This document shows, one piece after another, positions 1,879-33,660 of a DNA stretch of 42,424 bases (positions are counted from its first letter, which is position 1; each line of letters starts with the position of its first letter). This DNA comes from an uncultured bacterium (GTDB taxonomy: Bacteria; JAAXHH01), in contig CAJXCW010000012.1 of assembly GCA_913051705.1 (NCBI GenBank), forward strand, positions 1 through 42,424. Reading direction: 5' to 3'. A program made the position numbers and the translations under genes. The notes under the pieces were generated by a model. That model was not told where the DNA came from, searched no databases, and was given only the letters and a program-made list of their open reading frames with translations.

Positions 1879-1917
1879 GGTGATTTGGTGAAGTGTTTTT
1901 TAAATCACCAATTCACC
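1879..1917. repeat. Octamer repeats forming an inverted pair between convergent genes
   Basis: GGTGATTT (1879-1886) is followed by a degenerate second copy. After a T-run its complement AAATCACC (1902-1909) and the related AATTCACC follow. This gives an 8-bp perfect stem with a 15-nt loop between the convergent carrier-protein and transporter genes. It could act as a weak bidirectional terminator, but the stem is AT-rich. Confidence 0.55.
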
Positions 1918-2794
1918 TCTCCCCTCTTTCCTGTCCTATCACCACATAAATGCCGGTCAGAACCAGCATACCTCCGATCAATGTATATCTGGTTACTTCT
2001 TCATTCAGAATGAGGTAGGCCAGGATGGTCGAGCCGATTGGTTCGGTCAGGATAACAACGCTTACCAGAACGGCCGACAGATATTTCAACGCCCAGTTGA
2101 GGGAGGAATGACCCAGGAGCTGGGGACCTACCGCCAATCCAATCAGGATAAGATAGGTGGACGGCGTATAGCCCGACATAGGCTGACCTGTTGCCAGAGC
2201 CAATCCCACAAGCCATACTGCGGCGGTGGAATATACCACGGTGATATACGGCAACAAATCAACCTGACCGCGCAGTTTACGTCCGATGACGAAGTAACCA
2301 CCGGCAGATATCGCCCCGGCGATCGCCAGCAGATCTCCGAACAACGGATCTACCCCCGTCGTGTAATCTCCATATCCAATGACCACACCGCCGGATACAG
2401 CCACCAGAATTCCTGTAAACATCCGGGCTGACAGGCGTTCCCGTAGGCCCCAGTGAGAGAGCATACCCACGAATACAGGCGCCGTGGTCACCAGCATCAC
2501 CGAGCTGGCTACCGAGGTATAAGCCAGCGAGGTAATCCAGGTGGCAAAATGAACCGCCAGCAGCAGGCCTGCCAGGCTTGACCACAGCCAAACGGAGGTT
2601 GACCATTTTAAAAAGTCATTGCCCTGTTTGATTGACGTGATCGGAATGAGGATGACGGCTGCTATCGAGACTCGGTACGCCGAAATGGCAAACGGCGTCG
2701 CTTCCGCAAGCCGGATAAGAATGGCTGCACAGGACATGCAGGCGACACCGAATGCCAGACAGGAATAGAGAGGTAGAGATGCGGGGATTTTCAT
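1913..2794 (-). CDS. EamA/DMT-superfamily transporter
   Basis: 293 aa integral membrane protein with about ten hydrophobic segments and two EamA-type halves (residues about 10-140 and 155-288). The second half has the typical AVLVSVVILTEPIGSTILAY signature region. The family exports small metabolites such as amino acids, nucleosides or drugs; the substrate cannot be read from sequence. The start at 2794 places the first transmembrane segment (LYSCLAFGVACMSCAAILI) at the N-terminus. There is no Shine-Dalgarno sequence: the ATG is directly preceded on the coding strand by CATAATTCACCA, the end of a heptamer array. It is convergent with the carrier-protein gene. Confidence 0.88.
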   Translation of the reverse strand: MKIPASLPLYSCLAFGVACMSCAAILIRLAEATPFAISAYRVSIAAVILIPITSIKQGNDFLKWSTSVWLWSSLAGLLLAVHFATWITSLAYTSVASSVMLVTTAPVFVGMLSHWGLRERLSARMFTGILVAVSGGVVIGYGDYTTGVDPLFGDLLAIAGAISAGGYFVIGRKLRGQVDLLPYITVVYSTAAVWLVGLALATGQPMSGYTPSTYLILIGLAVGPQLLGHSSLNWALKYLSAVLVSVVILTEPIGSTILAYLILNEEVTRYTLIGGMLVLTGIYVVIGQERGER

Positions 2795-2798
2795 TGGT

Positions 2799-2838
2799 GA
2801 ATTATGAATTATGAATTTTAAATTATGAATTATGATTG
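2799..2838. repeat. GAATTAT heptamer array in the divergent transporter/sbcD gap
   Basis: GAATTAT-type heptamers occur in two short runs (2799-2812 and about 2821-2836) between the divergent transporter and sbcD genes. On the transporter strand they read as CATAATT units ending 5 bases before its ATG. Confidence 0.7.
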
Positions 2839-2899
2839 AGCATTATCGAAGCCTGTAATCAGGGTGAATTGTGAACTCTATTTTATACGGAAATTACCT

Positions 2900-2928
2900 T
2901 TGACATGAGCGTATATAATCGATATATA
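2900..2928 (+). promoter_or_regulatory. Predicted sigma70-type promoter of the sbcD operon
   Basis: Consensus -35 TTGACA at 2900-2905 and TATATA at 2923-2928 with a 17-bp spacer. TATACT at 2925-2930 with a 19-bp spacer is an alternative -10. The start point would be near 2935, about 50 bases before the sbcD ATG. Predicted by pattern only. Confidence 0.6.
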
Positions 2929-2959
2929 CTAAACGCACCTTTGGTAATCTATGCACCCA

Positions 2960-2980
2960 ATCATAAATCATAAATCATAA
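2960..2980. repeat. ATCATAA heptamer array, three exact copies
   Basis: Three tandem ATCATAA units end 7 bases before the sbcD start codon and take the place where a Shine-Dalgarno sequence would be expected. Confidence 0.8.
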
Positions 2981-2987
2981 TTCAACA

Positions 2988-4259
2988 ATGCCTTTCAAAG
3001 CTCTTCATCTCGCTGATATCCATATCGGTATGGAAAACTATGGCCGGATCGATCCGGATACCGGTCTCCATACCCGGCTACAGGATTTTGTAAAATGCCT
3101 GGGTTTCGCCGTCGAGACCGCGTTGGAGGAGGAGGTTGACCTGGTGCTGTTTGCCGGGGATGCTTACCGTACCTGCGATCCCAACCCTACGCATCAACTT
3201 GCGTTCGCCGCCCAGTTCCGGCGTTTTTCGGATGCAGGCATTCCGGTGGTGATGATCGTCGGCAATCACGACAATCCGGTCTCCTTCGGCAAAGCGACAT
3301 CCATCGATATCTTCGGTACATTAAACAGAGGCGAGGTCCGGATCGTAGCCAGACCGGAACGCCTGGTTATAGACACAAAAAGCGGCAAAGCCCAGGTGGC
3401 CTGTCTACCCTGGCCGATGAAAAGTACGATCATGACACAGGAGCAATATAAAGGGCTGTCGGAAACGGAAATCAGAACGCAGATTGAAGATATATGTACC
3501 CGGATCATCCAGACTTTCGCTGATGAAATGATCCCCGATCATCCCGCCTTCCTGATGTCCCACATTACGGCGACGGACGCAACCCTGGCCGGCACGGAAC
3601 GAGCGGCGGTAATCGGTCATGATCCGACGATTCTGACCAGCGTCCTGGCCAACCCGGCCTTCGACTACGTGGCACTGGGCCATGTGCATAAATTTCAGGA
3701 TCTGAACCCGAGCGGCGAACCTCATGTCATCTATCCCGGTAGTGTGGAGCGGGTGGATTTCGGGGAAGAGCATGAAGCCTGCGGTTTTTGTATCGTGGAA
3801 TATGAGGGCAAAGGACAGACCTCCTATCGTTTTATCGAAACACCTGCCCGCCCGTTCGTCACGATTGACGTGGAGATACCACCGGATGAACCACCGACAG
3901 AGTACATGATCCGAGCTATCCGCCGCCGGAACCTGACGAATGCTGTCGTGCGGGTAATTTATACTGTGGCAGAGGAGCAACAGCATCTGGCCGATATCAA
4001 GGAAGTGCGGGAGGCACTGAAAGAGGCGTTCCTTGTTGCTTCCATCATCCGGAAAACCGAGGCTCCCGAGCGGGTTCGTCGGGCATCGGTATCGGAAGAA
4101 TTGAACATTCAGGAGGCGCTGGATAGATATTTTGAAAACAATCCGACACTGAAGCCGTTTGTCGAAGATATGAAATCCTATGCCCGGCAGTTGGAGCATG
4201 AGCTTTTCGAAGAGGAACAGGGCCGCATGCAAAACGTCGAGCCGGGAGCAAAGGAATAA
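2988..4259 (+). CDS. sbcD: SbcD-like DNA repair exonuclease subunit (metallophosphoesterase)
   Basis: 423 aa nuclease subunit of the SbcCD (Mre11-Rad50-like) complex, which trims DNA hairpins and protein-blocked ends. The metallophosphoesterase motifs are all present in order: Asp10-x-His12 (LADIHIG), Asp58 (FAGDAYR), GNHDN, the later SHI histidine and GHVHK. The C-terminal part (about residues 280-423) is the region that in the family contacts SbcC. The ATG at 2988 is the first in frame and gives the expected N-terminus, but no Shine-Dalgarno is visible and the leader is a heptamer array. The stop is 4 bases before the next gene, and sbcC follows beyond it, so sbcD, the SDR and sbcC are probably one operon. 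Confidence 0.93.
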   Translation: MPFKALHLADIHIGMENYGRIDPDTGLHTRLQDFVKCLGFAVETALEEEVDLVLFAGDAYRTCDPNPTHQLAFAAQFRRFSDAGIPVVMIVGNHDNPVSFGKATSIDIFGTLNRGEVRIVARPERLVIDTKSGKAQVACLPWPMKSTIMTQEQYKGLSETEIRTQIEDICTRIIQTFADEMIPDHPAFLMSHITATDATLAGTERAAVIGHDPTILTSVLANPAFDYVALGHVHKFQDLNPSGEPHVIYPGSVERVDFGEEHEACGFCIVEYEGKGQTSYRFIETPARPFVTIDVEIPPDEPPTEYMIRAIRRRNLTNAVVRVIYTVAEEQQHLADIKEVREALKEAFLVASIIRKTEAPERVRRASVSEELNIQEALDRYFENNPTLKPFVEDMKSYARQLEHELFEEEQGRMQNVEPGAKE

Positions 4260-4263
4260 CGCT

Positions 4264-5244
4264 ATGCCATATGTCCTGGTGACCGGCGGAACCGGTATGG
4301 TCGGCAGCACGATGGTCGATTATATATTGGCCGAACATACCGATTATGATGTGGTGGCCATGCGACGTGTCGATTCAAATTTGAAAAATATAACCCATGT
4401 CTTGGATCATCCCCGCGTGCATTGGGAAATGGGAGATCTATTGGATTTGGAGAGCCTGAAACGTATTTTGACGACCTACAAACCTGTCCGGTGTTTTCAT
4501 ACGGCAGGCATGTCCCATGTCCCGACCGCATGGCGATTTCCACAGGACTGTATGCAGGTCAATGTGATCGGCCAGATTAACCTGTTTGAGGCCATACGGG
4601 AAATATGTCCTGAATGCTGTATTCAGATATGTGGCAGCAGTGAGGAATATGGATTGGTCCTTTCGCACGAAGTGCCCATTAAAGAGACCAATCCGTTACG
4701 ACCGTTATCACCGTACGGATGTAGTAAAATCGCCCAGGATATGCTGGGTTATCAATACACCAAGGGCTATGGCATGAAGATCGTGCGTACCCGGGCGTTC
4801 AACCACAGTGGGGCTCGACGACATGAAGATTTTGCAGAAGCCTCTTTTTCAAGCCAGATCGCTCGCATTGAACAAGGGTTACGCGAACCGGTTATTGAAC
4901 ACGGTAATCTCGACGCCATACGCGATATGACCAACGTGAAAGATGTGGTTCGGGCCTACTGGATAAGCCTGGATGGCCAATGTGAGTGGGGTGAGGTGTA
5001 TAACATCTGTTCCGGTCGTGGACCACGTATTCAGGGGATGCTGGACTACCTGATCAGCCTGACGGATATAGATATAACACTCGCGCCTGATCCGACGCTG
5101 ACGAGACCTTCTGATATACCAATCTTAATAGGCGATTATACTCGATTTAGTCAGGCCACCGGCTGGGAACCCACCTATACATGGAAGGAAACCATAGCCG
5201 AATGCCTGGACTACTGGCGTCTGCAAGTGCAGAGTACAAAATGA
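4264..5244 (+). CDS. NAD(P)-dependent epimerase/dehydratase, GDP-mannose 4,6-dehydratase / RMD-like
   Basis: 326 aa extended short-chain dehydrogenase. The Rossmann motif GGTGMVG is at residues 8-14, and the catalytic YGCSK (YxxxK) follows in mid-protein. The C-terminal half (AFNHSGARR, QIARIEQGLREPVIEHGNLDAIRDMTNVKDVVRAY) matches the GDP-mannose 4,6-dehydratase / GDP-4-dehydro-6-deoxymannose reductase group. It therefore probably makes a deoxyhexose nucleotide for glycans. The open frame extends upstream into sbcD, but the ATG at 4264 is chosen because AAGGA lies just before it and the Rossmann strand MPYVLVTGG starts there. Its place between sbcD and sbcC is unusual, since those two are normally adjacent. 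Confidence 0.87.
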   Translation: MPYVLVTGGTGMVGSTMVDYILAEHTDYDVVAMRRVDSNLKNITHVLDHPRVHWEMGDLLDLESLKRILTTYKPVRCFHTAGMSHVPTAWRFPQDCMQVNVIGQINLFEAIREICPECCIQICGSSEEYGLVLSHEVPIKETNPLRPLSPYGCSKIAQDMLGYQYTKGYGMKIVRTRAFNHSGARRHEDFAEASFSSQIARIEQGLREPVIEHGNLDAIRDMTNVKDVVRAYWISLDGQCEWGEVYNICSGRGPRIQGMLDYLISLTDIDITLAPDPTLTRPSDIPILIGDYTRFSQATGWEPTYTWKETIAECLDYWRLQVQSTK

Positions 5245-5245
5245 T

Positions 5246-5290
5246 GAGTTCCGAGTTCTGAGTACTTTTCATTCACCATTCACCATTCAC
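5246..5290. repeat. Two consecutive heptamer arrays upstream of sbcC
   Basis: GAGTTCC, GAGTTCT and GAGTACT at 5246-5266 are followed within 4 bases by three exact CATTCAC copies at 5270-5290. The second array plus CATTTTCA runs directly into the sbcC ATG. The two arrays share the unit length of 7 but not the sequence. Confidence 0.8.
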
Positions 5291-5298
5291 CATTTTCA

Positions 5299-8343: not shown

Positions 8344-8444
8344 CCGTATTTTATGCTTGGTTCTTTGCGTTTGGTGTGTATTTTGTGTAAATTCCCAGTT
8401 CAGCGTGCAGCGTGCGGAGTTTAAACATATAAAGGAGGACGTAT

Positions 8445-10010: not shown

Positions 10011-10036
10011 TTTAAAAGCTATAGGAAGGGGTTAAA

Positions 10037-13212: not shown

Positions 13213-14994
13213 TCACGTCCCCATGCTTTCTTCTCTCAGTCTATCCAGAATCACACCCCCCTCTTCATCCATTATATGTAAAACCGCATCAAGAAAATCC
13301 TCACCCAATGGGATATCTGCCGAGTAACCTGTACGTCGGACTTTTAATTCAACAAATCCATTTTTAACCCCCCGGCTTCCAATCGTCAACCGTATCGGTA
13401 TCCCCATCAGATCCGCATCATTAAATTTAACACCGGCCCGATCGTTCCGGTCATCATACAGCACATCCAGGCCGGCTTCCGTCAAGGTGTCATACAAGGT
13501 GTCCGCCACCTGTATAACTTCAGGATTGCCGCCGGCCAGGCTCACCAGCATAATCTGAAACGGGGAGACACTGAGTGGCCAGCAGATGCCGTTCTCATCG
13601 TGATTCAGTTCAATAATCGTGGCTATTAGCCGGTCAACCCCGATGCCGTAGCATCCCATAACCAGCGGATGGGATGTATTCTGCCCATCCAGGTAAGTGG
13701 CGTCCATCACGGCGCTGTATTTGGTGCCCAGTTTGAAAATATTACCGACTTCAATACCGCGTTCGGATCGCAGCCTTTCGCCACACGAGGGACAGGCATG
13801 GCCGTCGGCCGCAGCGGTGATATCCGCCACGATATCCGCCTCATAGTCCCGGCCGTAGTTAACATGAGTCAGGTGATAGTCCACCTTGTTGGCGCCTGCG
13901 ACCAGATTCGGGCTGATCGGAATCAGGTCATCCACCACCAGTAATACACGAGATCGATCGATGCCGACAGGCGATCCGAAACCCGGCTCAGCGCCGATAT
14001 CTAAAATCTCTTCAGGCGTGGCCGGACGAAGGGCCAACGCGTTGACGGCATTGCTGATTTTAGTCTCGTTGAGGTCCATATCGCCTCTGACCACCGCGAA
14101 TACAAATTGATCTTCAAGAGGTCCGCTATCGTCTGCGATCGTGGCGACCAGAAACACGGCTTTGGCTGTTTTCTCTGTTGAGATATTCAGGAATGCCGCG
14201 AGTTCATCGATGGTGGTTGTACCGGGGGTATGGATTTCTTTAAGTGGCAGCGCCGTTTCAGGAGCCGGTTTTAATTTCTGAAAAGCCGCCACCTGACGAT
14301 TTGCCTTATACCCGCAAGCGTCACACATCAGGATGGTATCCTCGCCATCCGGCGAAAGAGCCATGAATTCGTGGGCCATCGTCCCGCCCATCATGCCTGT
14401 ATCGCTGCTGACGGCGACGACGTCAATGCCGCATCGTCGGAAAATATTGAAGTAGGCCTGATAGACCTGTGGATAATACGCGTCCAGATCTTCGAAATCA
14501 GCATGAAATGAGTAGCCGTCTTTCATCGTAAATTCCCGCACACGAATCAAACCGCCGCGCGGTCTCGGTTCATCCCGGAATTTGGTCTGGATCTGATACA
14601 CCATGAAAGGCAATTGACGATAGCTCTTGATCAATCCGGCGGCTAATGATGTGACGACCTCTTCATGCGTCATCCCCAGACAAAGGTCTCGATTATGGCG
14701 ATCCTTCAGCCGGGCCATGTCACTGCCGATCTGCTGCCAGCGGCCGCTCTGTTGCCACAGTTCTGCGGGCTGGACGACCGGCAACGACACTTCCTGGCCG
14801 GTGATGGCTTCCATTTCTTCTCGAATAATCCGTTCTATACGGTGTTTAATCCGCTGACCGATCGGCAGATACGAAAAAATACCGGCGGCAACCTGTCTGA
14901 CCAGCCCCGCCCTCAGCATAAGTTGATGGCTGATCAATTCCGCTTCGGATTGTTCCTCTCGAAGCGTTTGAAAAAATAATCGGGTTAATCGCAT
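13213..14994 (-). CDS. proS: Prolyl-tRNA synthetase, bacterial type
   Basis: Charges tRNA-Pro. 593 aa class II synthetase with motif 2 (KFRDEPRPRGGLIRVREFTMKDGYSF, in part), the inserted YbaK-like editing domain (about residues 225-405), motif 3 (MGCYGIGVDRL) and the C-terminal anticodon-binding domain, i.e. the bacterial ProS layout. The frame is open upstream to 15180, but the ATG at 14994 gives the canonical MRLTRLFFQTLRE opening. GAGGAA lies just upstream and the extension would run through the preceding gene. It is 10 bp downstream of the PHP gene on the same strand and convergent with the glycosyltransferases. Confidence 0.96.
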   Translation of the reverse strand: MRLTRLFFQTLREEQSEAELISHQLMLRAGLVRQVAAGIFSYLPIGQRIKHRIERIIREEMEAITGQEVSLPVVQPAELWQQSGRWQQIGSDMARLKDRHNRDLCLGMTHEEVVTSLAAGLIKSYRQLPFMVYQIQTKFRDEPRPRGGLIRVREFTMKDGYSFHADFEDLDAYYPQVYQAYFNIFRRCGIDVVAVSSDTGMMGGTMAHEFMALSPDGEDTILMCDACGYKANRQVAAFQKLKPAPETALPLKEIHTPGTTTIDELAAFLNISTEKTAKAVFLVATIADDSGPLEDQFVFAVVRGDMDLNETKISNAVNALALRPATPEEILDIGAEPGFGSPVGIDRSRVLLVVDDLIPISPNLVAGANKVDYHLTHVNYGRDYEADIVADITAAADGHACPSCGERLRSERGIEVGNIFKLGTKYSAVMDATYLDGQNTSHPLVMGCYGIGVDRLIATIIELNHDENGICWPLSVSPFQIMLVSLAGGNPEVIQVADTLYDTLTEAGLDVLYDDRNDRAGVKFNDADLMGIPIRLTIGSRGVKNGFVELKVRRTGYSADIPLGEDFLDAVLHIMDEEGGVILDRLREESMGT

Positions 14995-15004
14995 GGCATA
15001 TTCC

Positions 15005-15931
15005 TCAGTCCTTAATCCAGAAGGGCTGTGTCCAGGCTTTCGCATGCCCGTGCCCCTGGCATTCGGCTCTGATGTAGATCGATTCAGATATATTTTCAGG
15101 TGTGCCGGCCCAATGTTGAAATTCGTCCATGGTGATGACACAGCTGCCTGACGTGAACTTTTGAGCGACGATGCCATCACGCATTATCCACCAGATCTCA
15201 TCGGCGTCACTCTGCAAGGTGATTTCCTGACCATCAGATCGAACGCCGACCTGTTGTATAGACACGCCGGTGGATGCATAAAACCGACCTGCGTGACAGG
15301 CGTCTACGATGCTCCGCCAGGATACAGGCTCATTCTCAGACCATTGCACGCAGTTCCAGGCCAGAAAGTGATCAATCGGTTCATGCTGGTCGTCTGTGCC
15401 GTGGCCATAGACCTGCCATCCCTTGCTGAGGAGCCGGTCCCAGCGATTCGTAGCATTAGCTTCGCCCGATAAACGCTCAATCACACCGGTGTATATCTCC
15501 ATGCCGCACAGGCCGGTCATGGTATCGAGAAGGGCGTCGGTTGTATAATCCGGGCGAGGCTGCCAGTTCGGATGGTCGTAGATGAACAGTCCACCCGCAG
15601 CATGCACCTCATCCATGATCTGTTTTGGTGTCAATGTTCTGGCAGGCAGTTCCCGGTCAGCGCCTAAATAGAGCAACGTCTGATTGTCAGACGAGGTCAC
15701 TTCTATGGCGGGAACCAGGCACATCGAAGTCGCCGGCTGTAACGGCCTGACATCCAGCAGGGTGTCGTGTTCTGAAAAGGCCAGATAATCATAACCTGCT
15801 TCTTCATACAAACGAACATTTTCTTCAGGAGACAGGTGTCCGTCCGAAACGGTTGAATGGCCGTGATGATTCCCACGCAACCATCGATACGGCGTGTCAG
15901 GGTCGCAATAGGACGTCACAAAACGGGGCAT
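15005..15931 (-). CDS. PHP-domain metal-dependent phosphoesterase-like protein
   Basis: 308 aa. The N-terminal PHP signature is clear: RGNHHGHSTVSDGHLSPEE gives the His-x-His pair plus Asp, followed by YLAFSEHD and later FIYDHPNW. These residues coordinate a trinuclear metal site in the CehA/YciV-type group. The C-terminal third (after about residue 215) is a beta-rich region without a known signature. No signal peptide. GGGAG precedes the ATG. The substrate is unknown; homologous PHP proteins hydrolyse phosphate esters. It is probably co-transcribed with proS, 10 bp downstream. Confidence 0.82.
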   Translation of the reverse strand: MPRFVTSYCDPDTPYRWLRGNHHGHSTVSDGHLSPEENVRLYEEAGYDYLAFSEHDTLLDVRPLQPATSMCLVPAIEVTSSDNQTLLYLGADRELPARTLTPKQIMDEVHAAGGLFIYDHPNWQPRPDYTTDALLDTMTGLCGMEIYTGVIERLSGEANATNRWDRLLSKGWQVYGHGTDDQHEPIDHFLAWNCVQWSENEPVSWRSIVDACHAGRFYASTGVSIQQVGVRSDGQEITLQSDADEIWWIMRDGIVAQKFTSGSCVITMDEFQHWAGTPENISESIYIRAECQGHGHAKAWTQPFWIKD

Positions 15932-17978: not shown

Positions 17979-17983
17979 TTGAT
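17968..17983. repeat. Two TGATTGRT octamers spanning the S9 stop codon
   Basis: TGATTGGT then TGATTGAT; the TGA at 17976-17978 starts the second unit and terminates the peptidase frame. Confidence 0.55.
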
Positions 17984-18085
17984 TTCGCTGCGCTCAATCG
18001 AAAGTAAAGAACGCCTCTTCAAGGCTTTATTAGAACGCGCTTCGGTCGCTGAACTTTTTATTGATTTACTGATTTTGGTCCTTTC

Positions 18086-18109
18086 AATCACCAAATCACT
18101 AAATCACCA
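18086..18109. repeat. AATCACYA octamer array, three copies
   Basis: AATCACCA, AATCACTA and AATCACCA in tandem, 10 bases before the GGAGCT ribosome site of the DegT remnant. Confidence 0.75.
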
Positions 18110-18568: not shown

Positions 18569-18588
18569 GCAGGTGGGCAGGAAAATTT

Positions 18589-18636
18589 GGTGATTGGGTG
18601 ATTGGGTGATTGGGTGATTGGGTGATTGGGTGATTG
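18589..18636. repeat. GGTGATTG octamer array, six exact copies
   Basis: Six perfect tandem GGTGATTG units, 48 bp, 20 bp after the DegT remnant and ending 22 bases before the AGGAGG of the next gene. The longest and cleanest array in the window. Since 8 is not a multiple of 3, TGA appears in all three forward frames. Confidence 0.95.
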
Positions 18637-18672
18637 AAAATACTGAAAATAAATCAATCAGGAGGACATTTT

Positions 18673-19818
18673 ATGCGGCGAATTTCTACTCTGGTTTTAT
18701 GCACGACCTTGCTGGCGAGTACCATGGCCTGCGGATCGGACTCATCACCTGTTGACGGCAACACATCGCGGGATCCGAGGCTCTCTCAGATAAGCCTTCC
18801 GGCCGGTTTCAGCATCGATATCTACGCAGAAGGCGTGGAGAACGCCCGGTCGATGGCGTTGGGTTCGGACGGGACGCTGTTTGTCGGATCTCGTAGTGAG
18901 GGCAAGGTCTATGCGGTAAAGGATGTGGATGGGGACTATAAGGCCGATCAGGTTTTTACCATCGATAGCGGTCTGTATATGCCGAACGGGGTGGCCTTTC
19001 GAGATGGATCGCTCTATGTCGCCGAAGTCAACCGGATTCTACGTTATGACTTTATTGAACCCCGGATCGACAACCCGCCCGAGCCTGTGGTCGTGAGCAA
19101 CGGGTTTCCCTCCGACCGCCACCATGGCTGGAAATTTATCCGGTTCGGACCGGACAACAAGCTCTATGTACCGGTCGGCGGTCCGTGTAATGTGTGTGAA
19201 CAGAATGATGAACGGTATGCCACCATCATGCGCATGAATCCGGATGGCACGGACCTGGAAGTGTATGTGAGCGGCGTGCGTAATACGGTCGGATTCGATT
19301 GGTCTCCGGGCACTCAGGAACTCTGGTTTACGGATAACGGTCGGGATATGCTGGGCAACGATATACCGCCGGATGAACTGAATCGAGTCACCCAGGCCGG
19401 TCAGCACTTCGGTTTTCCCTATCACCACGGCACGAATATCCCGGATCCCGATTTCGGCGGCAAACGGGCTAAGGATACCACCGTATCGCCGGCTCTGGAA
19501 CTCGATCCCCACGTGGCGGCCATAGGGATGCGATTTTATACCGGTACGATGTTTCCGGAAGAATACCGTAATCAGATTTTTATCGCTGAACATGGTTCCT
19601 GGAACCGCGATCAGAAAATCGGTTATCGCGTGATGCTGGTCCGATTAAACGGCAGCGACCCGGTCAGCTATGAGCCGTTTATCGAAGGCTGGCTCCAGGG
19701 AGAGGATAACTGGGGCCGTCCTGCTGATGTGCTGGTCATGCCCGATGGATCGATGCTCGTATCGGACGACCAGGCGGGGTTGATTTATCGGGTCACCTAT
19801 GATGAATTGAGTGATTGA
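18673..19818 (+). CDS. Secreted sorbosone/glucose dehydrogenase-like beta-propeller (PQQ-type), putative lipoprotein
   Basis: 381 aa. The N-terminus MRRISTLVLCTTLLASTMAC looks like a lipoprotein signal with Cys20 as the lipidated residue, though the lipobox is imperfect. The rest is a six-bladed propeller of the GSDH/sorbosone dehydrogenase group: LPAGFSIDIYAEGVENARSMALG, RHHGWKFIRFGPDNKLYVPVG, NPDGTDLEVYVSGVRNTVGFDW and FIAEHGSWNR. The His and Arg of RHHGWK and GVRN are typical of PQQ-contacting blades. It probably oxidises a sugar or aldose in the periplasm; cofactor and substrate are inferred. AGGAGG at 18660-18665 supports this start over an upstream in-frame ATG at 18634. The stop codon lies within an octamer array. 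Confidence 0.85.
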   Translation: MRRISTLVLCTTLLASTMACGSDSSPVDGNTSRDPRLSQISLPAGFSIDIYAEGVENARSMALGSDGTLFVGSRSEGKVYAVKDVDGDYKADQVFTIDSGLYMPNGVAFRDGSLYVAEVNRILRYDFIEPRIDNPPEPVVVSNGFPSDRHHGWKFIRFGPDNKLYVPVGGPCNVCEQNDERYATIMRMNPDGTDLEVYVSGVRNTVGFDWSPGTQELWFTDNGRDMLGNDIPPDELNRVTQAGQHFGFPYHHGTNIPDPDFGGKRAKDTTVSPALELDPHVAAIGMRFYTGTMFPEEYRNQIFIAEHGSWNRDQKIGYRVMLVRLNGSDPVSYEPFIEGWLQGEDNWGRPADVLVMPDGSMLVSDDQAGLIYRVTYDELSD

Positions 19819-19838
19819 GTGATTGAGTGATTGAGTGA
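19807..19838. repeat. TTGAGTGA octamer array, four copies, overlapping a stop codon
   Basis: Four exact TTGAGTGA units start inside the sorbosone-dehydrogenase-like gene; its last codons and the TGA at 19816-19818 are written by the array. Confidence 0.9.
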
Positions 19839-19850
19839 TTGGTGAGTTAG

Positions 19851-21387: not shown

Positions 21388-22125
21388 ATGTTGACAAGCC
21401 ATGAATTCCAGCAATATCGTGAAGAAGGGTATCTCATCTTTCCAGCGCTCATCTCTGGTGAATCGCTGCAACGCTATAAAGGACTTCTGGATGATCTGGT
21501 CGAGCGGGCAAGGGCGTTGAAGACCAATGAAGACGGCTTTACCTTACAACCGGATGACCAAGGCCATCTGATCGCCGGGCGTCTGTTTAAAGTGCAGGGT
21601 GTCTGTGTCGTGGAACCACACCTGCTGGATCTGGCGCGGGAGCCTGCAATTGTATCGCGTGTGACGGATTTAATCGGCGCCTCATTGCATATGTTCGGCA
21701 CCAAATTTTTCCCCATGTTGCCCCAGGGCGGTACCTCGACAGGCTGGCATCAGGACAACCATTATTTCGGCACCCGATCTCATCTGGTTCTCAGTTGCGG
21801 GATCTACCTGGAAGATACCGATCAATCAAACGCCTGCCTGCGTCTGCTGCCGAGAAGCCATGCAACCGGCGAATTGGTCGAACATACAAGCGGAGAAGGA
21901 ACGTTCGCGCATGGAAACTGGACCGAGGTGGACGAATCACAGGCCCTCTTCGTCGAATGTCCCGCCGGCACGGTGGTGCTGTTCTCTGCCAACCTGCTCC
22001 ACGGCGCGGGCACAAATACCAGCGACCGATCCCGCTACAGTACTGCCTGGCACTACATTCCTGCGGATCTGGATCTGGAACAATTTCCCTTTGGCGAGTA
22101 TAAAGACAGGCATGTGATTTGTTGA
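21388..22125 (+). CDS. Phytanoyl-CoA dioxygenase (PhyH)-family Fe(II)/2-oxoglutarate oxygenase
   Basis: 245 aa cupin-fold oxygenase. The iron triad is visible as His121-x-Asp123 (GWHQDNHYF) and His205 (LLHGAGTN); Arg214 or Arg216 of SDRSRYS is the likely 2-oxoglutarate ligand. It starts with the typical EFQQYREEGYLIFPALIS. Members hydroxylate fatty acids, ectoine, halogenated or natural-product substrates; the specificity here is unknown. No signal peptide. GAGG lies about 15 bases before the ATG. The stop TGA at 22123-22125 begins a unit of an octamer array. Confidence 0.9.
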   Translation: MLTSHEFQQYREEGYLIFPALISGESLQRYKGLLDDLVERARALKTNEDGFTLQPDDQGHLIAGRLFKVQGVCVVEPHLLDLAREPAIVSRVTDLIGASLHMFGTKFFPMLPQGGTSTGWHQDNHYFGTRSHLVLSCGIYLEDTDQSNACLRLLPRSHATGELVEHTSGEGTFAHGNWTEVDESQALFVECPAGTVVLFSANLLHGAGTNTSDRSRYSTAWHYIPADLDLEQFPFGEYKDRHVIC

Positions 22126-22146
22126 TTGTCTGATTGTGTGATTGTG
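22115..22146. repeat. TGATTGTG octamer array, four degenerate copies, overlapping a stop codon
   Basis: TGATTTGT, TGATTGTC, TGATTGTG, TGATTGTG. The first unit is in the phyH-like coding sequence and the second unit's TGA is its stop codon. Confidence 0.8.
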
Positions 22147-22337
22147 TTGCCTTACTATTGATATCTTACAAGATCATTTAATTCTGAGACACAAACGTGT
22201 TGCCTGATTTGAACCAATAAAAGTATATCCGGCACTCTGAGTTGTCTCAGACGGCGCTCATCACCCTTCCACCCTTCCACCCGGGCTTCCCCAACCCCTT
22301 GCCTGCCCACGCTAAATACGCTATATTACCTCCGTAA
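22147..22337. other. Intergenic stretch with a short CACCCTTC repeat
   Basis: Between the PhyH gene and the cohesin-like remnant. It holds two exact CACCCTTC octamers plus a partial third (22262-22282). I see no gene, RNA or clear promoter in the rest. Confidence 0.5.
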
Positions 22338-22769: not shown

Positions 22770-22770
22770 T

Positions 22771-24968: not shown

Positions 24969-24980
24969 TTTTTTATTGTT

Positions 24981-25001
24981 GAATTATGAATTATGAATTG
25001 T
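24981..25001. repeat. GAATTAT heptamer array upstream of the sulfatase
   Basis: GAATTAT, GAATTAT, GAATTGT in tandem. On the sulfatase strand the array ends 12 bases before the ATG. Confidence 0.75.
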
Positions 25002-25042
25002 GATTTATGGAGAGAAGGTATAGGTAAGATATAGATTAATCA

Positions 25043-25864: not shown

Positions 25865-25876
25865 GCGGTTGGCGGC

Positions 25877-26655: not shown

Positions 26656-26656
26656 C

Positions 26657-26899: not shown

Positions 26900-26905
26900 T
26901 TTAAT

Positions 26906-26929
26906 TGATTGACTGATTGACTGATTGAA
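26906..26929. repeat. TGATTGAC octamer array, three copies
   Basis: TGATTGAC, TGATTGAC, TGATTGAA directly upstream of the FG-GAP stub's GTG start (on the opposite strand orientation). Confidence 0.85.
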
Positions 26930-26998
26930 AACCTGATCTACCCTCGCCTTCTGCTTACCGCCTACCTATCTCCCCCTATCCCTCCACCCACCCATTTC

Positions 26999-28834
26999 CT
27001 AATACCTGACCAACACCCTGCCTAATCCGTTGCCCAACAACTCCGGGGTCTGTTCACGGTCCAGCAACCCCGCCTCGGTGCCTACCCGTTGTCGAACATA
27101 GATGTACAATTCCTGCATGGTAATCGTTCGATCATTATCGGCATCTGCTTCGCCCTGGAGACCAAGCATCAGAAAATACGTGAACAACCCATGTGCCTTC
27201 ACAGGGTATCCGGAACTGACCTGATTGCCGGCGGAGGCGGCCAGGACCATCGTATTTTCACCGATGCGCGCCTGCCGCGGTTGCACACCGATACCGCGTG
27301 CGCCTGCCAGCAGCATCTCCACCTGGCGACCCCGGCCTACCCGGCCGCTGAAGCAGGCATCCAGGAATACAGTCGCCTGTTTGACCGGTAACTGCTCCAG
27401 GCTGCGGTACAGTTCCGCCAGCCTGTAGCTTGTAGCAGGATAATTGGGGTCGCTGTCCGACGGCATCAGGTAGAGGTCACCCGTGGATATATCCGGGGCG
27501 CCATGACCGACATAATAGATAAACACCTCCGTCATACCAGGCGTAATCCGTTTTGCCAGCCAGCCTTGCGACGGGTCGAATATTTTTCGAAATTCACCCT
27601 GGGTCGCTTCCTGATCTATACGAAAATAAATCCGGCTGTCCGGGATGCCGAGGGTCCTTACAAAATAGTCGCGCATGCTGCGGGCGTCGTTACGGGCGAA
27701 GGTGACGTCCGGCGCGTAACGATATTCTTCCACGCCGAGGATAATCCCCAGGGCTTCCGGGCGTTGTATTTTTGAAAACGGTGCTTTATTAACATCACCA
27801 CTACCGCCGGAAAACCTGGGGGTTGGTGTAATGCTCGGGGAGGGATCCGACGCGATCGATTCCTCGCTGATATGAATACGCCATCTTCGCAGGAGGCCAT
27901 CCTCCTCTCCTGCTATTAAGGACCTGCCATCCGGGCTGAAGGCCACAGCCCAGACCGGCCGTTCCTCATCTCGCGTCAACGCCGGACGCCGACGTTCTAC
28001 ATCCCATACACGGATGGTATGATCCAGGCTGCTTGAAGCCAGCCAGCGGCCATCGGATGAAAAGTCCAGCGAGGTAACCAGATTTATATGGGCAGGGAAG
28101 GTAGCTGCCACCCGCCGCTGTTCCAAATCCCAGAGCAGAATCGAATCATCGGCGCCGGCACCGCTGGCCAACCACCGCCCGTCGGTAGAGACGGCAATAG
28201 GCGACGCCCCACCGCGTAATTCACCCACTGGTTCTTTGGTATACGGATCCCATAGCAGGATAGACCGTGAAGCGGTGGGTACAGCCAGCATATTATCTCC
28301 CGGAATGAAACGCGCCTGCCCTAAAAGGTCTGTGCGTTCAGGCACCGGGTTGGCTCGCTTCAATTGCCCGAAACTCCAGGTATGGACCGCCTTATCCCCA
28401 TTGCTACCCGTCAGCCATAATCGGTCCGAAGATATGTCTACGGAAAACACCGGGGCCGAGAGATTGAGTCGCCCGGTTTCCTGACGATCTTCGGGCGTCC
28501 ATATTCTGATCGTCTGATCTTCACTGCCTGATACAAGCGTTTTTCCGTCCGGAGACCAGGCCAGCGCCCATACCGGTCCCTGATGCCCTCTGAAGACACC
28601 CCGGTCAAGGTGCTGATTGCTGTCCCACATTGTTATGAGATGATCCGCGCCGCCGGAAACGAAGGCCTGACCATCCGGTGAAAAAGCCAGCGCGGTCACC
28701 GCCCCACTATGCCCCATCCAGGTTTCCGGCTCAGAAAACGTCATTTTCTGCGCCCGGGTGTAACCGGAAAAAAGAAGAAGACTGAGACTCCATACGCCCA
28801 TCAAACCGATCAGAATACGGGATTTGCGAAACAT
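26999..28834 (-). CDS. Secreted WD40-propeller / caspase-like (C14) protease with EF-hand-like loop
   Basis: 611 aa. Signal peptide 1-29 (LIGLMGVWSLSLLLFSGYTRAQ). Seven WD40-like repeats (about 38-321: GHSGAVTALAFSPDG, GHQGPVWALAWSPDG, AHINLVTSLDFSSDG, ending in W-D or similar) can close one propeller. A Ser/Pro linker (325-355) leads to a peptidase C14 domain (about 358-605) with catalytic His444 (YYVGHGAP) and Cys494 (FLDACFSG). Within the protease, Asp564-x-Asp566-x-Asp568-x-Thr570-Ile-Thr572 and Glu575 fit the EF-hand calcium loop. It is exported, so it acts in the periplasm, cell surface or outside. GAGGCG precedes the ATG. Targets are unknown; arginine/lysine-directed cleavage is typical of metacaspases. 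Confidence 0.88.
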   Translation of the reverse strand: MFRKSRILIGLMGVWSLSLLLFSGYTRAQKMTFSEPETWMGHSGAVTALAFSPDGQAFVSGGADHLITMWDSNQHLDRGVFRGHQGPVWALAWSPDGKTLVSGSEDQTIRIWTPEDRQETGRLNLSAPVFSVDISSDRLWLTGSNGDKAVHTWSFGQLKRANPVPERTDLLGQARFIPGDNMLAVPTASRSILLWDPYTKEPVGELRGGASPIAVSTDGRWLASGAGADDSILLWDLEQRRVAATFPAHINLVTSLDFSSDGRWLASSSLDHTIRVWDVERRRPALTRDEERPVWAVAFSPDGRSLIAGEEDGLLRRWRIHISEESIASDPSPSITPTPRFSGGSGDVNKAPFSKIQRPEALGIILGVEEYRYAPDVTFARNDARSMRDYFVRTLGIPDSRIYFRIDQEATQGEFRKIFDPSQGWLAKRITPGMTEVFIYYVGHGAPDISTGDLYLMPSDSDPNYPATSYRLAELYRSLEQLPVKQATVFLDACFSGRVGRGRQVEMLLAGARGIGVQPRQARIGENTMVLAASAGNQVSSGYPVKAHGLFTYFLMLGLQGEADADNDRTITMQELYIYVRQRVGTEAGLLDREQTPELLGNGLGRVLVRY

Positions 28835-29636: not shown

Positions 29637-29639
29637 TCA

Positions 29640-29984
29640 TCTTAATTCATTGAACCGACAGTAAGTGCCGATATTTCTTTAGATTATCGGGTTACACTCT
29701 ATACTGTATCATTGGCCGATCTAGGGGCCAGTCCTCCTCTTGAAGTAACCCAACGAATGGGATGCTGCAGGAGGATCCCTTTGTGAACGCCATGCGCCGT
29801 ATCATAATTATAAATATGCACATCCTGTTGCGGGAACGAATGGAAATATCGGCCTGTCAAACAAACATATATCGAAACAAGTTTGCTTGACAGGGCAGCC
29901 GGTCTAGTAGATTATTAGACAGGTCCGTTTTCCCGACCTCATCCTTTTGTTCATAGCAGTTTTAACGGTTGTCTTCGGTCGTAC
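29640..29984. other. 345-bp gap with CCGATATTTC repeats and a promoter region
   Basis: The 10-mer CCGATATTTC occurs at 29629-29638 and 29668-29677 and inverted (GAAATATCGG) at 29843-29852. CACTCTATACT at 29695-29705 matches a piece of the palindromic family seen near 42.39 kb. A promoter/operator-like segment is listed separately. I see no gene. Confidence 0.4.
29853..29920 (+). promoter_or_regulatory. Predicted promoter with an overlapping operator-like palindrome
   Basis: CCTGTCAAaCAAAC (29853-29866) and GTTTGcTTGACAGG (29881-29894) form a 14-bp inverted repeat with one mismatch and a 14-nt spacer. The right arm contains TTGACA (29887-29892), and GATTAT lies 17 bp downstream (29910-29915) as a -10. 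A second short palindrome GTCTA...TAGAC (29902-29920) covers the -10. This could be a repressor site on the promoter of the phosphodiesterase gene at 29985. Confidence 0.45.
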
Positions 29985-31220
29985 ATGTCCCATTTCATCA
30001 AACCACTTTACGGCGCCCGATGTTTTTCAGATATTCCCCGGACCGTGGTGTCCATGCTGACGGGGGCTTTTCCACCTGGATTACATCCTGATCTATTTGG
30101 TGATTTGCCACAGCGCTATGACCGGGTGGTGGTCCTCTATCTCGATGCTTTTGGATGGCGGTTTGTAGAGCAGCTTCTCGAAGACGCCCCGCTTCTTCAG
30201 CGGCTGAACCGGGAAGGCGTTGTTACCAAGATCACCTCGCAATTCCCCTCTACCACCGCCGCCCATGTTACAGCCATCCACACGGGAAAAACCCCGGGGC
30301 AGAGTGGCGTGTTCGAATGGCAGTATTATGAACCCCAACTGGATAAAATGATCTCACCGCTTCTGTTTTCTTTTGCTGGAGATAAAAAGCGGGATACGCT
30401 CACACAAACCGGTATCGAGCCGGCCAGGTTGTATCCCAATCGTACCCTCTACCATGATCTCAAGGATCATGGCGTGCGCTCCACCATTTTTCAATCCAGG
30501 GAGTTTACTCCCTCCACGTATTCTCGGGTCGTCTTCAAGGGGGCCAGGGTAAAACCTTATGTCTCGCTTCCCGAAGCGCTGGTGAATCTACGCCAACGGC
30601 TGATTTCAAAAGCAACCCCGGCCTACTATTTTTTATATTTTGATAAACTCGATACCATCTGTCATCACCATGGTCCGCAATCGCCTCATGCCGCTGCCGA
30701 GACGGAAACCATGCTGACGATTCTGGATCAGCAGTTGTTCAGACCGCTGGATGGAAAATTGCAGAACACCCTGTTTCTGATCACGGCGGATCATGGCATG
30801 GTTGAAGTGGACCCGAAGACGACGATCTATTTAAATACCGATCAACGATTCGAAGGATACGAACGGTTCCTGAAGCAAAATCGCGATGGTCAATGGCTGG
30901 TGGCCGCTGGGTCGCCGAGAGATATGTTCCTGTATATATATGAAGACCGCCTTGAGGAAGCGCTGTCTTTTTTCGGTGATCGCCTCGATGGCATAGCAGA
31001 TGTGCGCCGTGTACAGGATCTGATTGATCAGGGCTATTTCGGACCACCGCCTGTTTCGGAGGTGTTTCTCTCCAGAGTGGGTAATCTGGTTATCCTGCCT
31101 TATTCGGGTGAAAGCGTCTGGTGGTATGAGAAAGGTCGGTTTGAACAGAAATTCTATGGACATCATGGGGGATTGACCCCGTCGGAGGCAGAAATTCCGT
31201 TGATATTGTATGCCATGTAA
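29985..31220 (+). CDS. Type I phosphodiesterase/nucleotide pyrophosphatase-family hydrolase
   Basis: 411 aa alkaline-phosphatase-superfamily enzyme. The first metal Asp and nucleophile region are VVLYLDAFGWRFV and SQFPSTTAAHVTAIHTGKTPGQSGVFEW (Thr nucleophile in PSTTAAH), with LFLITADHGMVEVDP and YGHHGGLTPSEAEIPL carrying the later metal Asp/His residues. It probably hydrolyses phosphodiester or pyrophosphate bonds. There is no signal peptide. No Shine-Dalgarno before the ATG; transcription may start at the palindromic promoter about 65 bp upstream. An array of GGGCARGT octamers separates it from folD. Confidence 0.85.
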   Translation: MSHFIKPLYGARCFSDIPRTVVSMLTGAFPPGLHPDLFGDLPQRYDRVVVLYLDAFGWRFVEQLLEDAPLLQRLNREGVVTKITSQFPSTTAAHVTAIHTGKTPGQSGVFEWQYYEPQLDKMISPLLFSFAGDKKRDTLTQTGIEPARLYPNRTLYHDLKDHGVRSTIFQSREFTPSTYSRVVFKGARVKPYVSLPEALVNLRQRLISKATPAYYFLYFDKLDTICHHHGPQSPHAAAETETMLTILDQQLFRPLDGKLQNTLFLITADHGMVEVDPKTTIYLNTDQRFEGYERFLKQNRDGQWLVAAGSPRDMFLYIYEDRLEEALSFFGDRLDGIADVRRVQDLIDQGYFGPPPVSEVFLSRVGNLVILPYSGESVWWYEKGRFEQKFYGHHGGLTPSEAEIPLILYAM

Positions 31221-31230
31221 GTTCGAAAGC

Positions 31231-31254
31231 GGGCAAGTGGGCAGGTGGGCAAGT
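31231..31254. repeat. GGGCARGT octamer array, three copies
   Basis: GGGCAAGT, GGGCAGGT, GGGCAAGT in tandem, between the phosphodiesterase stop and the GAGGAG ribosome site of folD. Confidence 0.85.
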
Positions 31255-31288
31255 AAAGAAATTAAAATCACTTGAGGAGCCATGTTAG

Positions 31289-32158
31289 ATGCGTGAGATG
31301 AACAAGCTGGTGGTGATGAGTGGGCGGAAGCTGGCGGATGAGATTCAGGGCAGGCTCAAAGACGAAACCGCTCAATTACGCGCGCAGGGTATTACACCGG
31401 GGCTGGCGACGGTTCTGGTGGGCGATGATCCGCCCAGCGCTATATATATTGCCATGAAGCGCAAGACCTGTGAAGAAATCGGTATCCGGTCTATCCATAC
31501 CCATCTGGAAACCCCATCCCAACCGGCTTTAATGGATACGATTCAAAGGTTGAACGAAAATCCTGAAGTGGATGCCATCCTGGTACAAATCCCGCTGCCG
31601 CCAGGTATGGATGAGGAAGCGGCGTTGCTGGCGATAGAACCAGATAAAGATGCGGACGGCCTTAATCCGATCAATCTGGGGCGTCTGGTGATCGGCACTC
31701 CGGGTCCTTTACCCTGTACGCCGAATGGGATCCATACGATGCTGGTTCATTATGGCGTACCGATAGAGGGAAAGCATGTGGTCATCATCGGGCGCGGTTT
31801 AACCATTGGACGGCCTCTATCCTTACTTCTATCCATGAAACGCCCGCATTGTAATGCGGCGGTTACAGTGCTGCATACAGGCGTGCCGAATATGGCCGAT
31901 TATACGCGTGAGGCGGATATTATCATTTCCGCTGCCGGCTCGCCGGGGGTCATCAAGAAAGATATGGTCAAACCGGGTGTGGCCATTGTCGCTGCCGGCA
32001 TTAGCCGCAGAGGAAAAACACTGCTCAGTGATGCGGACAAAAGCGTTAAAGAGGTGGCCGGATGGATCACCCCGCGCGTCGGCGGCGTAGGCCCGATGAC
32101 GGTGGCGATGCTGATGCAGAATACAGTACTTGCCGCACAGCGAAGGGCGAAAGGATGA
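31289..32158 (+). CDS. folD: Bifunctional methylenetetrahydrofolate dehydrogenase/cyclohydrolase
   Basis: 289 aa. Interconverts methylene-, methenyl- and formyl-tetrahydrofolate. Signature motifs are Tyr53-x-x-x-Lys57 in AIYIAMKRKTCEEIGI (catalytic Lys), QIPLPPGMDE, KDADGLNPINLGRL, PCTPNGI, the NADP-binding VIIGRGLTIGRPL and VGGVGPMTVAMLMQNT. GAGGAG precedes the ATG at 31289; ATG 31298 is an alternative. The NADP loop reads GRGLTIGRP where GRSxxVGxP is usual, so the Ser is replaced by Gly. The stop overlaps the next gene's start (ATGA). Confidence 0.95.
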   Translation: MREMNKLVVMSGRKLADEIQGRLKDETAQLRAQGITPGLATVLVGDDPPSAIYIAMKRKTCEEIGIRSIHTHLETPSQPALMDTIQRLNENPEVDAILVQIPLPPGMDEEAALLAIEPDKDADGLNPINLGRLVIGTPGPLPCTPNGIHTMLVHYGVPIEGKHVVIIGRGLTIGRPLSLLLSMKRPHCNAAVTVLHTGVPNMADYTREADIIISAAGSPGVIKKDMVKPGVAIVAAGISRRGKTLLSDADKSVKEVAGWITPRVGGVGPMTVAMLMQNTVLAAQRRAKG

Positions 32159-33660
32159 GAGGGAAAAACGGGAAAGGACAAAAGGAAGAGTGGAAGAGTG
32201 GAAGAGTGGAAGAAAAGAAACCGCCTGTATCGTCCTTTCGTCCTTTCATGCTTCTGACTCTCCTGCTGTGGATTTCAGCAGGATCTCCTGCCATGGCAGA
32301 GCAGGAGCAGCAGGTTTTCGCCGCGGCGCCGGACACGCACTGGCTTGAAGTTCTACCTTCCGGCGACGGTGTACCCATTCCTAATCTGGCCGGTTTTGTC
32401 TATTTCGACGAACGACTGACCGGACCGCTTGGGCAGCTTCATGATCCTATCGTTGGTATCGGTCAGCTATTCGATCTCAGAATTCCGGTGGAATATTCAC
32501 CGGATGAGGGAATACGGGCTGATTTTACCGATTTCGGCGAAGTATTGAACGGGATTACTAGAAGCGGAGTTCGCCTGGCCCTCGGGCCTGGCTTCACGCC
32601 AGAGATTTTATCACCAACGCCCTATCTTGATAATTCGTTACGAAGAAACAAACCGCCGATTTCTTATAAAGCCTGGGAAGATCTGGTTTACCAGACCGTC
32701 CGATATGTGCTCGAGGAGAAAAAGGTGCAGGTAGCCTACTGGCCTGTCTGGAATGAGCCGGACTTCGGCATGTTCTGGGATGTGGATCATCGCCGGTATA
32801 CCCACGGGGCAGCGACGGCGCGTAATCCGGAGCTATGGAATCCCTCTCCGATAAGACAGGCCGCAGCAGGACAATTAAACGAAATCGCCCGGCTTATCGA
32901 GTATATGAAGCTATATGAAGTGACGGCAAGAGCGATCAAACGGGTAGATCCTCGCGCCAGGGTCGGCGGCCCCAGCCCTTCTTCTTTCAACAGGAGATGG
33001 CTGACCGCATTTTTGAACCACAGTGCGGAACAGAATCTGCCGGTGGATTTTATCTCATGGCATTATCCCCAATACCCGGAGGAACATAAGAAAAATGTGC
33101 AATGGTTAAGAAATTGGGCGGTGCAGCGCGGTATGGTCTTACCGCCCATCGTCATCACGGAATGGAATGCGAACCGGGGTTCCGGAGGCGACCCGTGGAT
33201 CGAGGCGGTTGACCTCATTGAAATCGCCATAGGCATGATCGAAACCAACGTGGAAGCCGCGTTCTATTATACCGTGGGTAACATCGCTGATGTAGAATCC
33301 GGGATGCTCACCCCGGTCGGCCAGGCATTTAAAATCCTTGGTCAACTGCAAGGTACACGTCTGACCTGTAACACATCCTCAGAGATCATGGGGATTGCCG
33401 CAAAAGATACGACAGGTCACCTTTCCCTTGTCTTTCGTCATTGGAATCAATCCCCGACCACCCTTCAACTGCGTCTACCCGATGGCTACACAACATATAC
33501 CCTCTCCCTATTCAGCGAAAATAGGCCCCCAATCCATAGCAACGGCCTCCTGACCGCTACATCTACCACTCACCAACGCACCAACGCACCAACGCACCAA
33601 CTCCTTCATCTTTCTCTCCCCGGGCGCAGCTTCGGCCTGCTCACCCTGCCTTCACCGTAG
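32155..33660 (+). CDS. Secreted GH39-like glycoside hydrolase (clan GH-A)
   Basis: 501 aa from the ATG at 32155. Signal segment MLLTLLLWISAGSPAMAEQ lies at 32-50, after a long charged N-terminus. The TIM-barrel has the acid/base Glu201 in WPVWNEPDF and the nucleophile Glu336 in VVITEWN-like VITEWNANRG, as in GH39 beta-xylosidases/iduronidases. A C-terminal beta region ends RSFGLLTLPSP. Two starts are possible: ATG 32155 overlaps the folD stop (ATGA), while ATG 32248 begins right at the signal peptide but has no ribosome site. GGAAGAGT octamers encode residues 11-20 and CACCAACG octamers encode a stretch near the C-terminus (THQRTNAPTHQ), so both ends are built from tandem arrays. Substrate unknown. 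Confidence 0.78.
   Translation: MRGKNGKGQKEEWKSGRVEEKKPPVSSFRPFMLLTLLLWISAGSPAMAEQEQQVFAAAPDTHWLEVLPSGDGVPIPNLAGFVYFDERLTGPLGQLHDPIVGIGQLFDLRIPVEYSPDEGIRADFTDFGEVLNGITRSGVRLALGPGFTPEILSPTPYLDNSLRRNKPPISYKAWEDLVYQTVRYVLEEKKVQVAYWPVWNEPDFGMFWDVDHRRYTHGAATARNPELWNPSPIRQAAAGQLNEIARLIEYMKLYEVTARAIKRVDPRARVGGPSPSSFNRRWLTAFLNHSAEQNLPVDFISWHYPQYPEEHKKNVQWLRNWAVQRGMVLPPIVITEWNANRGSGGDPWIEAVDLIEIAIGMIETNVEAAFYYTVGNIADVESGMLTPVGQAFKILGQLQGTRLTCNTSSEIMGIAAKDTTGHLSLVFRHWNQSPTTLQLRLPDGYTTYTLSLFSENRPPIHSNGLLTATSTTHQRTNAPTHQLLHLSLPGRSFGLLTLPSP
32184..32215. repeat. GGAAGAGT octamer array, three copies plus a partial
   Basis: GGAAGAGT x3 then GGAAGAAA, within the 5' end of the glycosidase frame (or its leader if translation starts at 32248). 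Confidence 0.9.
33571..33602. repeat. CACCAACG octamer array, four copies, inside a coding region
   Basis: CACCAACG x3 then CACCAACT, in frame near the C-terminus of the glycosidase, encoding a Thr/Asn/Pro/His-rich segment. Confidence 0.9.

Follow-up and report, generated by a model that had tools for sequence, protein, structure and literature searches.

The gaps between genes in the genome examined here carry short tandem arrays with a unit of 7 or 8 bases. The window, meaning the whole stretch of DNA that was analysed, is 42,424 nucleotides long (CAJXCW010000012.1, from an uncultured bacterium) and is contig C12 of a 5.45 Mb assembly of 405 contigs, which is 97% complete with 5.7% contamination. 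The analysis confirmed that the 7-8-base arrays are real and genome-wide. They are locked to these periods, lie at gene edges, follow a strand polarity, form inverted pairs, are amplified in blocks, and have small palindromic elements embedded among them. They are probably gene-edge simple-sequence arrays produced by local slippage-like amplification in steps of 7 or 8 bases, akin to arrays of Xanthomonas and Nostoc but built from dozens of words.

Unit length and array words

The unit length is held at 7 and 8 bases, while the lengths around them are nearly empty. Arrays in the window were detected with Tandem Repeats Finder (TRF). Periods were counted in a sample of this genome, picked by place, that comprised 842,424 bases with 535 gaps and 114 kb of gap sequence. 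Self-matches of at least 13 of 14 bases were counted at each lag in real gaps, shuffled gaps, and genes. The real gaps gave 34 matches at lag 7 and 47 at lag 8, against 2 in total at lags 1 to 6, none at lags 9 to 13, and about 0.2 per lag after shuffling. The genes gave 3 at lag 7 and 6 at lag 8. A comparison sample of 378 kb, drawn from 20 other genomes spread over the domain, showed no lock, with 3 and 6 matches at these lags, similar to the other lags. An earlier note, made from the sequence alone, had proposed that unit length is what is conserved, and the counts bear this out; an even spread of unit lengths over 5-12 bp, named there as the contrary outcome, is absent from the 842 kb. TRF also recovers the arrays listed in that note at the same positions or within a few bases, except for GAGTTCY at 5246, which falls below the TRF threshold yet is plain by direct reading (GAGTTCCGAGTTCTGAGT).

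The same lock is found in a second genome, RI_153 (WGMT01; 8.7 Mb), which was found through a relative of the prolyl-tRNA synthetase encoded in the window. In the 405 kb sampled, the gaps gave 64 matches at lag 7, 10 at lag 8, and 0 to 4 at other lags outside the multiples.

Longer periods show that arrays grow in blocks. The gaps of the window genome gave 24, 8, and 14 matches at lags 14, 15, and 16, and these lags capture multiples of 7 and 8 as well as genuine dimers that join two variant words, for example TGATTGGTGATTGAC. Units are alike inside an array and words differ between arrays, as expected from the local duplication proposed earlier. Local block amplification is thus well supported, both by the identical units and by the dimers of 14 to 16 bases.

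The array words are diverse but not unrelated. The 82 arrays of the window genome have 17 distinct 7-mers and 21 distinct 8-mers. These 38 words only partly bear out the earlier statement that the sequence differs each time, as several recur: TGATTGG at 8 loci, TGATTTGG at 5, and TGAATTA, TGAGTTGG, and TGATTGGG at 4 each. The recurrences, together with the fact that most words are C-poor on one strand, speak against fully unrelated words. Three tandem copies of TGATTGG occur 28 times in the window genome (overlaps counted) but in none of the other 15 members of the phylum set of 16, nor in a reversed control. Many TGATT-type arrays end inward with TGATTGAAA (window 18585-18650, L017:10291-10354, and others), as if their inner boundary were fixed. 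In RI_153 many arrays of this type end inward with GATTGGG or GATTAGG.

Location and strand polarity

The arrays are concentrated at the borders of genes. Gaps hold 0.61 arrays per kb and coding sequence holds 0.012, a difference of about 49-fold. Arrays lie at a median of 12 bp from a gene edge, compared to 27 bp under uniform placement, and none of 2000 simulations gave a value as low. The earlier observation that arrays sit at gene borders therefore holds, and a border density no higher than random was not seen. Nine arrays lie inside genes, 8 to 74 bp from a gene end, and some overlap a stop codon (for example window 19806-19845).

The G-rich strand of the arrays points away from the gene edge, toward the inside of the gap. 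Each array was scored by G versus C on the strand that leads from the closest gene edge to the gap interior, and ratios below give arrays that follow this direction to arrays that oppose it. The ratio is 52:10 in the window genome (Fisher p = 9e-8, side versus strand) and 56:4 in RI_153. Counting each distinct word once gives 33:6 and 25:2, and RI_153 without its TGATTGG arrays gives 34:2. The rule is strictest close to genes. Arrays 0 to 15 bp from an edge give 24:0 in the window genome and those farther away are mixed, while arrays that overlap an edge or lie within 40 bp of it give 46:0 in RI_153. Of the 14 window arrays that lie no more than about 35 bp from a gene border, 13 follow the rule and one, a 2.1-copy match at 8401, does not. 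The gap edges of array-free relatives have no comparable strand skew.

G tracts and stop codons in the words do not account for the polarity. GGG and CCC are missing from 56 of 67 arrays, so G-quadruplexes cannot be the common cause, and arrays lacking both are still polar (45:6 in the window genome). Even words without GG or CC give 18:2 in the window genome and 20:1 in RI_153. Stop codons are commoner on the outward strand (33:7 and 42:4), but words without stop codons on either strand remain polar (12:4 and 12:1), and stop-codon cassettes were rejected as the cause. Avoidance of start-codon or Shine-Dalgarno motifs was also considered as a cause; the arrays that lack such motifs on both strands number 2 in the window genome (1:0) and 8 in RI_153 (7:0), too small a set for a decision.

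The polarity is found at both ends of genes and in all gene orientations, suggesting a property of the DNA rather than of transcription or translation. It is 33:4 in the window genome and 23:1 in RI_153 at 5' ends, and 19:6 and 33:3 at 3' ends. With both genomes pooled, convergent gaps give 12:0 and divergent gaps 18:1. A divergent gap has no gene ends and a convergent gap has no gene starts, so causes based on transcription or translation would need two rules where a DNA-level cause needs one. These ratios weigh against the possibility that the arrays are functional RNA or DNA elements under selection, either terminator or attenuator hairpins or leaders that favour translation, comparable to the role proposed for TAACTGA repeats of Beggiatoaceae in PMC4679880. 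As leaders they would be C-rich before starts and G-rich and stop-bearing after stops. The arrays within 15 bp of starts and stops, the stop-richer outward strand, and the perfect stems in several gaps would fit such a role. However, the polarity persists without stop codons, the words change at nearly every gene, and arrays are missing from most related genomes. Selection for function is an unlikely explanation overall. A DNA-level cause of the polarity is more consistent with these data.

Inverted pairs and embedded elements

Many arrays have an inverted partner nearby. An inverted 9-mer match within 250 bp was found for 21 of 82 arrays in the window genome, against a mean of 3.75 and a maximum of 8 in a control with swapped flanks. 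In RI_153 it was found for 36 of 84 arrays, against a mean of 9.87 and a maximum of 16. Some array gaps are predicted to fold into near-perfect stems, with z-scores of -5 to -10. The pairing is not uniform: where a gap has an array at each edge, the two words differ in 4 of 6 cases in the window genome and in 10 of 14 in RI_153, and the mixed-word gap at window 5245-5298 has no predicted hairpin. Arrays without a partner are equally polar (30:6 and 27:1). Taken together, these results indicate that hairpins are one outcome of the arrays and not the reason for their polarity.

Inverted pairs raise the question of whether the arrays are parts of mobile elements similar to foldback elements or miniature inverted-repeat transposable elements (MITEs). 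The arrays would then be terminal inverted repeats composed of subrepeats, and whole gap-filling elements would have been transposed into the gaps. The inward-pointing pairs, the strong hairpins, the recurrence of words at many loci, and the dispersed palindrome described below are all features of such elements. However, the polarity of partnerless arrays, the unlike words that most two-sided gaps carry, and the unfolded gap at 5245-5298 do not fit. The loops between inverted arms look mostly unrelated by inspection. MITE and foldback elements are defined by a conserved body flanked by conserved terminal inverted repeats, an arrangement that was not found here. No Y1 transposase or RVT_1 domain was found in the window genome. 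Transposition of whole elements therefore has only a modest chance of being correct.

A palindromic element of 83 bases is embedded in many arrays. It has at least 40 copies in the window genome and no copy in the 11 other genomes searched, and each side of its copies is bordered by array words. Octamers that flank one and the same copy are somewhat more alike than octamers from different copies, to a degree attained in 11 of 1000 permutations. Covariation is weak, with changes on both sides in 2 of 18 pairs, one of these in 8 sequences. Rfam gave no match in the window, and the loci with the element gave a single match to a microRNA model, far under the cut-off. The copies (window 17981-18044; L192-L221) form two subfamilies in which GATT/AATC is swapped for GATG/CATC. 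By inspection, a second small element, GCATGTGTCC..GGACACGATGCGAGCCC..GGGGTT, behaves in the same way, and a hairpin form GCATGTGTCCT..GGACACGATGCGAGCCC..GGGGTT lies between array words at L192, L198, L200, L209, and L009:6772-6897. Several loops between inverted arrays in RI_153 (L267:10478-10701 and others in L266-L285) have a palindrome resembling GATCNTGTNNA..GATC, which may be a further small element of the embedded sort.

Distribution among genomes

The arrays appear to be a lineage trait that comes and goes, as they are found in an unrelated genome and are nearly absent from most relatives. Ribosomal protein S11 of RI_153 is 60% identical to that of the window genome, compared to 85-96% within the window's phylum, showing that RI_153 is not a close relative. 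The two genomes share the word TGATTGG, and RI_153 has 312 matches of TGATTGGTGATTGG and none of the reversed control. In 360 kb from nine genomes of the sister genus, exact arrays with a 7- or 8-base unit were not found, and the nearest genus has one in 140 kb. Four occur in 39 kb of G014, which belongs to the same order, and none in 38 kb of another genome (G015). In a set of mainly Chloroflexi loci period 7 is commonest (16 of 34 exact arrays), and there is no polarity in this small, mixed set (8:8).

The prolyl-tRNA synthetase of the window (13213-15180, minus strand) is mostly 62-66% identical to homologues from Caldilineaceae (Chloroflexota), perhaps pointing to gene transfer between the window group and Chloroflexota. 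S11, a slower protein, is 61-65% identical to its counterparts in two Chloroflexi-type genomes, which is near the synthetase figure.

Mechanism

A local slippage-like process is the likeliest explanation of the arrays. Short words near a gene edge would be copied head to tail by slippage-like replication or repair synthesis, with a step of 7 or 8 bases that may reflect the contact of an enzyme with DNA. Neighbouring variant words would sometimes be amplified jointly, giving units of 14, 15, and 16 bases. Arrays inside genes would be purged by selection, since 7 and 8 are not multiples of 3, and the survivors would lie in gaps, mostly at the edges. The polarity would arise if the same strand were 3'-growing, or tolerated, on both sides of the gap. 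Where a gap holds an array and its inverted copy, a near-perfect foldback hairpin could form, and the palindromic element lies inside many arrays.

Several points weigh against this explanation. By itself, slippage would not lead one to expect the polarity or the scarcity of units of 5-6 and 9-13 bases, and given the excess of inverted copies (21 against 3.75), a process confined to single edges cannot be the whole account. The analysis covered one genome of the species, from which expansion and contraction are presumed. Gene borders came from a simple script based on codon usage and not from curated annotation, the RI_153 stretches were picked partly for containing TGATTGG, and many arrays have words in common and are incompletely independent.

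Candidate enzymes were sought in the genomes. Ku was not found in the window genome, its relatives, or RI_153, leaving the end-joining microduplication suggested earlier without support in its Ku-type form. Reverse transcription was rejected on the lack of RVT_1 in the window genome; RI_153 has one RVT_1 domain. Transposases of the REP type were rejected as well, because the Y1 transposase domain (PF01797) that marks REP/BIME-RAYT systems had no match in the window genome. The earlier note had mentioned SbcCD, speculatively; its genes sbcC and sbcD are in the window, but nothing was found that connects them with the arrays. A heptamer query of our own composition had no plasmid match.

Addition of G-rich units of 7-8 bases onto both 3' ends of an intergenic break, followed by joining, would resemble telomere synthesis. 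It would give exactly the observed strand pattern, namely a G-rich 3' end growing into the gap from either side, and it would allow different words at the two edges; the unit length is also within the range of telomeric repeats. However, the window genome has neither a reverse transcriptase domain nor Ku, and many templates would be needed for words that change between loci and are not consistently G-rich. No such enzyme is known from bacteria. This route is very improbable, and it is just as hard to believe that a dedicated process of this kind, similar to telomere healing, leaves polar gene-edge arrays in several unrelated bacterial phyla.

Arrays of the window

The arrays of the window illustrate the layout at individual genes. 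The divergent gap upstream of sbcD has a 7-mer array of TGAATTA at its left edge (2798-2835, plus strand; detected by TRF), with the G-rich strand outward, and one of AATCATA (outward TGATTTA) at its right edge, 3 bp before the sbcD start (2959-2984, minus strand). In the gap before sbcC, a degenerate 7-mer array of GAGTTCC/GAGTTCT, the one seen by direct reading, lies directly past a stop codon (5246-5263, plus), and CATTCAC (outward TGAATGG) lies 4 bp before the sbcC start (5270-5294, minus). A partial copy of the 83-base element, 92% identical over 64 bases, lies between TGATTG-type words at 17981-18044 (plus), and the 8-mer array AATCACCA (outward TGATTTGG) is at a right gap edge (18086-18109, minus). 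Six copies of GGTGATTG occupy a left gap edge (18585-18636, plus). Two 8-mer arrays overlap stop codons: five copies of ATTGAGTG at the end of the upstream gene (19806-19845, plus) and the degenerate TGATTGTG (22113-22147, plus). The 8-mer array CACCCTTC (minus strand TGGAAGGG) lies in the middle of a gap (22262-22282, minus), and its unit is also found in L014. Left gap edges also carry the 7-mer TGAATTA, in a divergent gap (24980-25009, plus), and the 8-mer TGATTGAC (26906-26928, plus). The gene at 26999-28834 (minus strand, 611 aa) has a predicted caspase-like domain of the EACC1-associated type, below the model cut-off.

The remaining arrays are 8-mers. GGGCARGT lies 6 bp past a stop codon (31227-31254, plus), and GGAAGAGT lies 25 bp past the folD stop codon (32184-32213, plus). 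The GGAAGAGT array is between folD and the likeliest next start (about 32249), although the longest open reading frame (ORF) covers it. TCGTCCTT (outward AAGGACGA) lies 1 bp before this likely start (32230-32247, minus) and pairs with AAAGGACAAAAGGA upstream in the predicted fold. Four copies of CACCAACG (33571-33601) are an exception to the gap rule; they had been assigned to a gap but are inside an ORF without a family match, in its 3' part near the end.

Relation to known repeats

Heptamer repeats known as STRR are found in heterocystous cyanobacteria, where they are mostly intergenic. The SDR elements of Nostoc punctiforme, said to have been described by Elhai and colleagues in 2008, are reportedly embedded in heptameric repeats. 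By description they resemble the elements found here, as both are small, foldable, dispersed, and located inside tandem heptamer arrays. In the same comparison by description they differ in that the embedded element here is about 83 bases long and found only in the window genome among those searched.

The closest layout is that of the GGGAATC and GGGGA(C/T)T heptamer arrays of Xanthomonas and Nostoc, which are intergenic and located at gene edges (Rehm et al. 2015; PMC4692102). In these genomes the G-rich strand is the non-coding strand upstream of a gene and the coding strand downstream, Xanthomonas has 70-75 cases per genome of convergent inverted pairs on the plus and minus strands, and the function was left open (PMC4692102). 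The arrays described here share the gap-biased 7-base tandem units (with period 8 in addition), the strand rule at both gene ends (52:10 and 56:4), and the convergent inverted pairs (21/82 and 36/84). This layout places the window arrays in a known kind. In contrast to the Rehm type, they have 7-mers and 8-mers with dozens of words, and the G3 tracts in about four units needed for G-quadruplexes are missing from most of them, so they are not G-quadruplex repeats. Divergent gaps are also not avoided in the window genome, where they hold 17 of 67 arrays. The earlier note had missed this prior description of the layout for one G-rich heptamer (PMC4692102), as well as the strand polarity, the inverted pairing, and the embedded palindromic element.

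Other bacteria have related arrays. Geobacter metallireducens has paired hepta- and octanucleotide sites annotated as predicted global regulator binding sites (PMC2700814). They are likewise short 7- or 8-base tandem arrays in opposite-strand pairs at variable distance, but they consist of a few fixed consensus units and include one class with a 5-base unit. PMC4679880 describes TAACTGA direct repeats in Beggiatoaceae, some cyanobacteria, and Bacteroidetes, which are also heptamers, mostly intergenic, near start codons, and mixed with related variants. Unlike the arrays here, they have one dominant word per Beggiatoaceae genome, related heptamers are rarely repeated, and the text consulted mentions no octamers. 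Mrazek et al. 2007, as cited in PMC4679880, found heptamers to be the commonest class in most genomes, and as cited there and in PMC4692102 they proposed that heptamers arise when a polymerase in contact with 7 bases slips. New here are the octamers as a class, the number of different words, and the independence of the strand rule from G-quadruplexes.

Heptamer repeats are oddly common in bacteria, as has been noted since 2007, and a tested cause was not found in the literature. The strand rule of these arrays is independent of G-quadruplexes, stop codons, hairpins, and gene orientation, and the period is 7 or 8, not 6 or 9, which makes the candidate causes separable. The question of why seven thus becomes a testable one: what sets the step and the strand.

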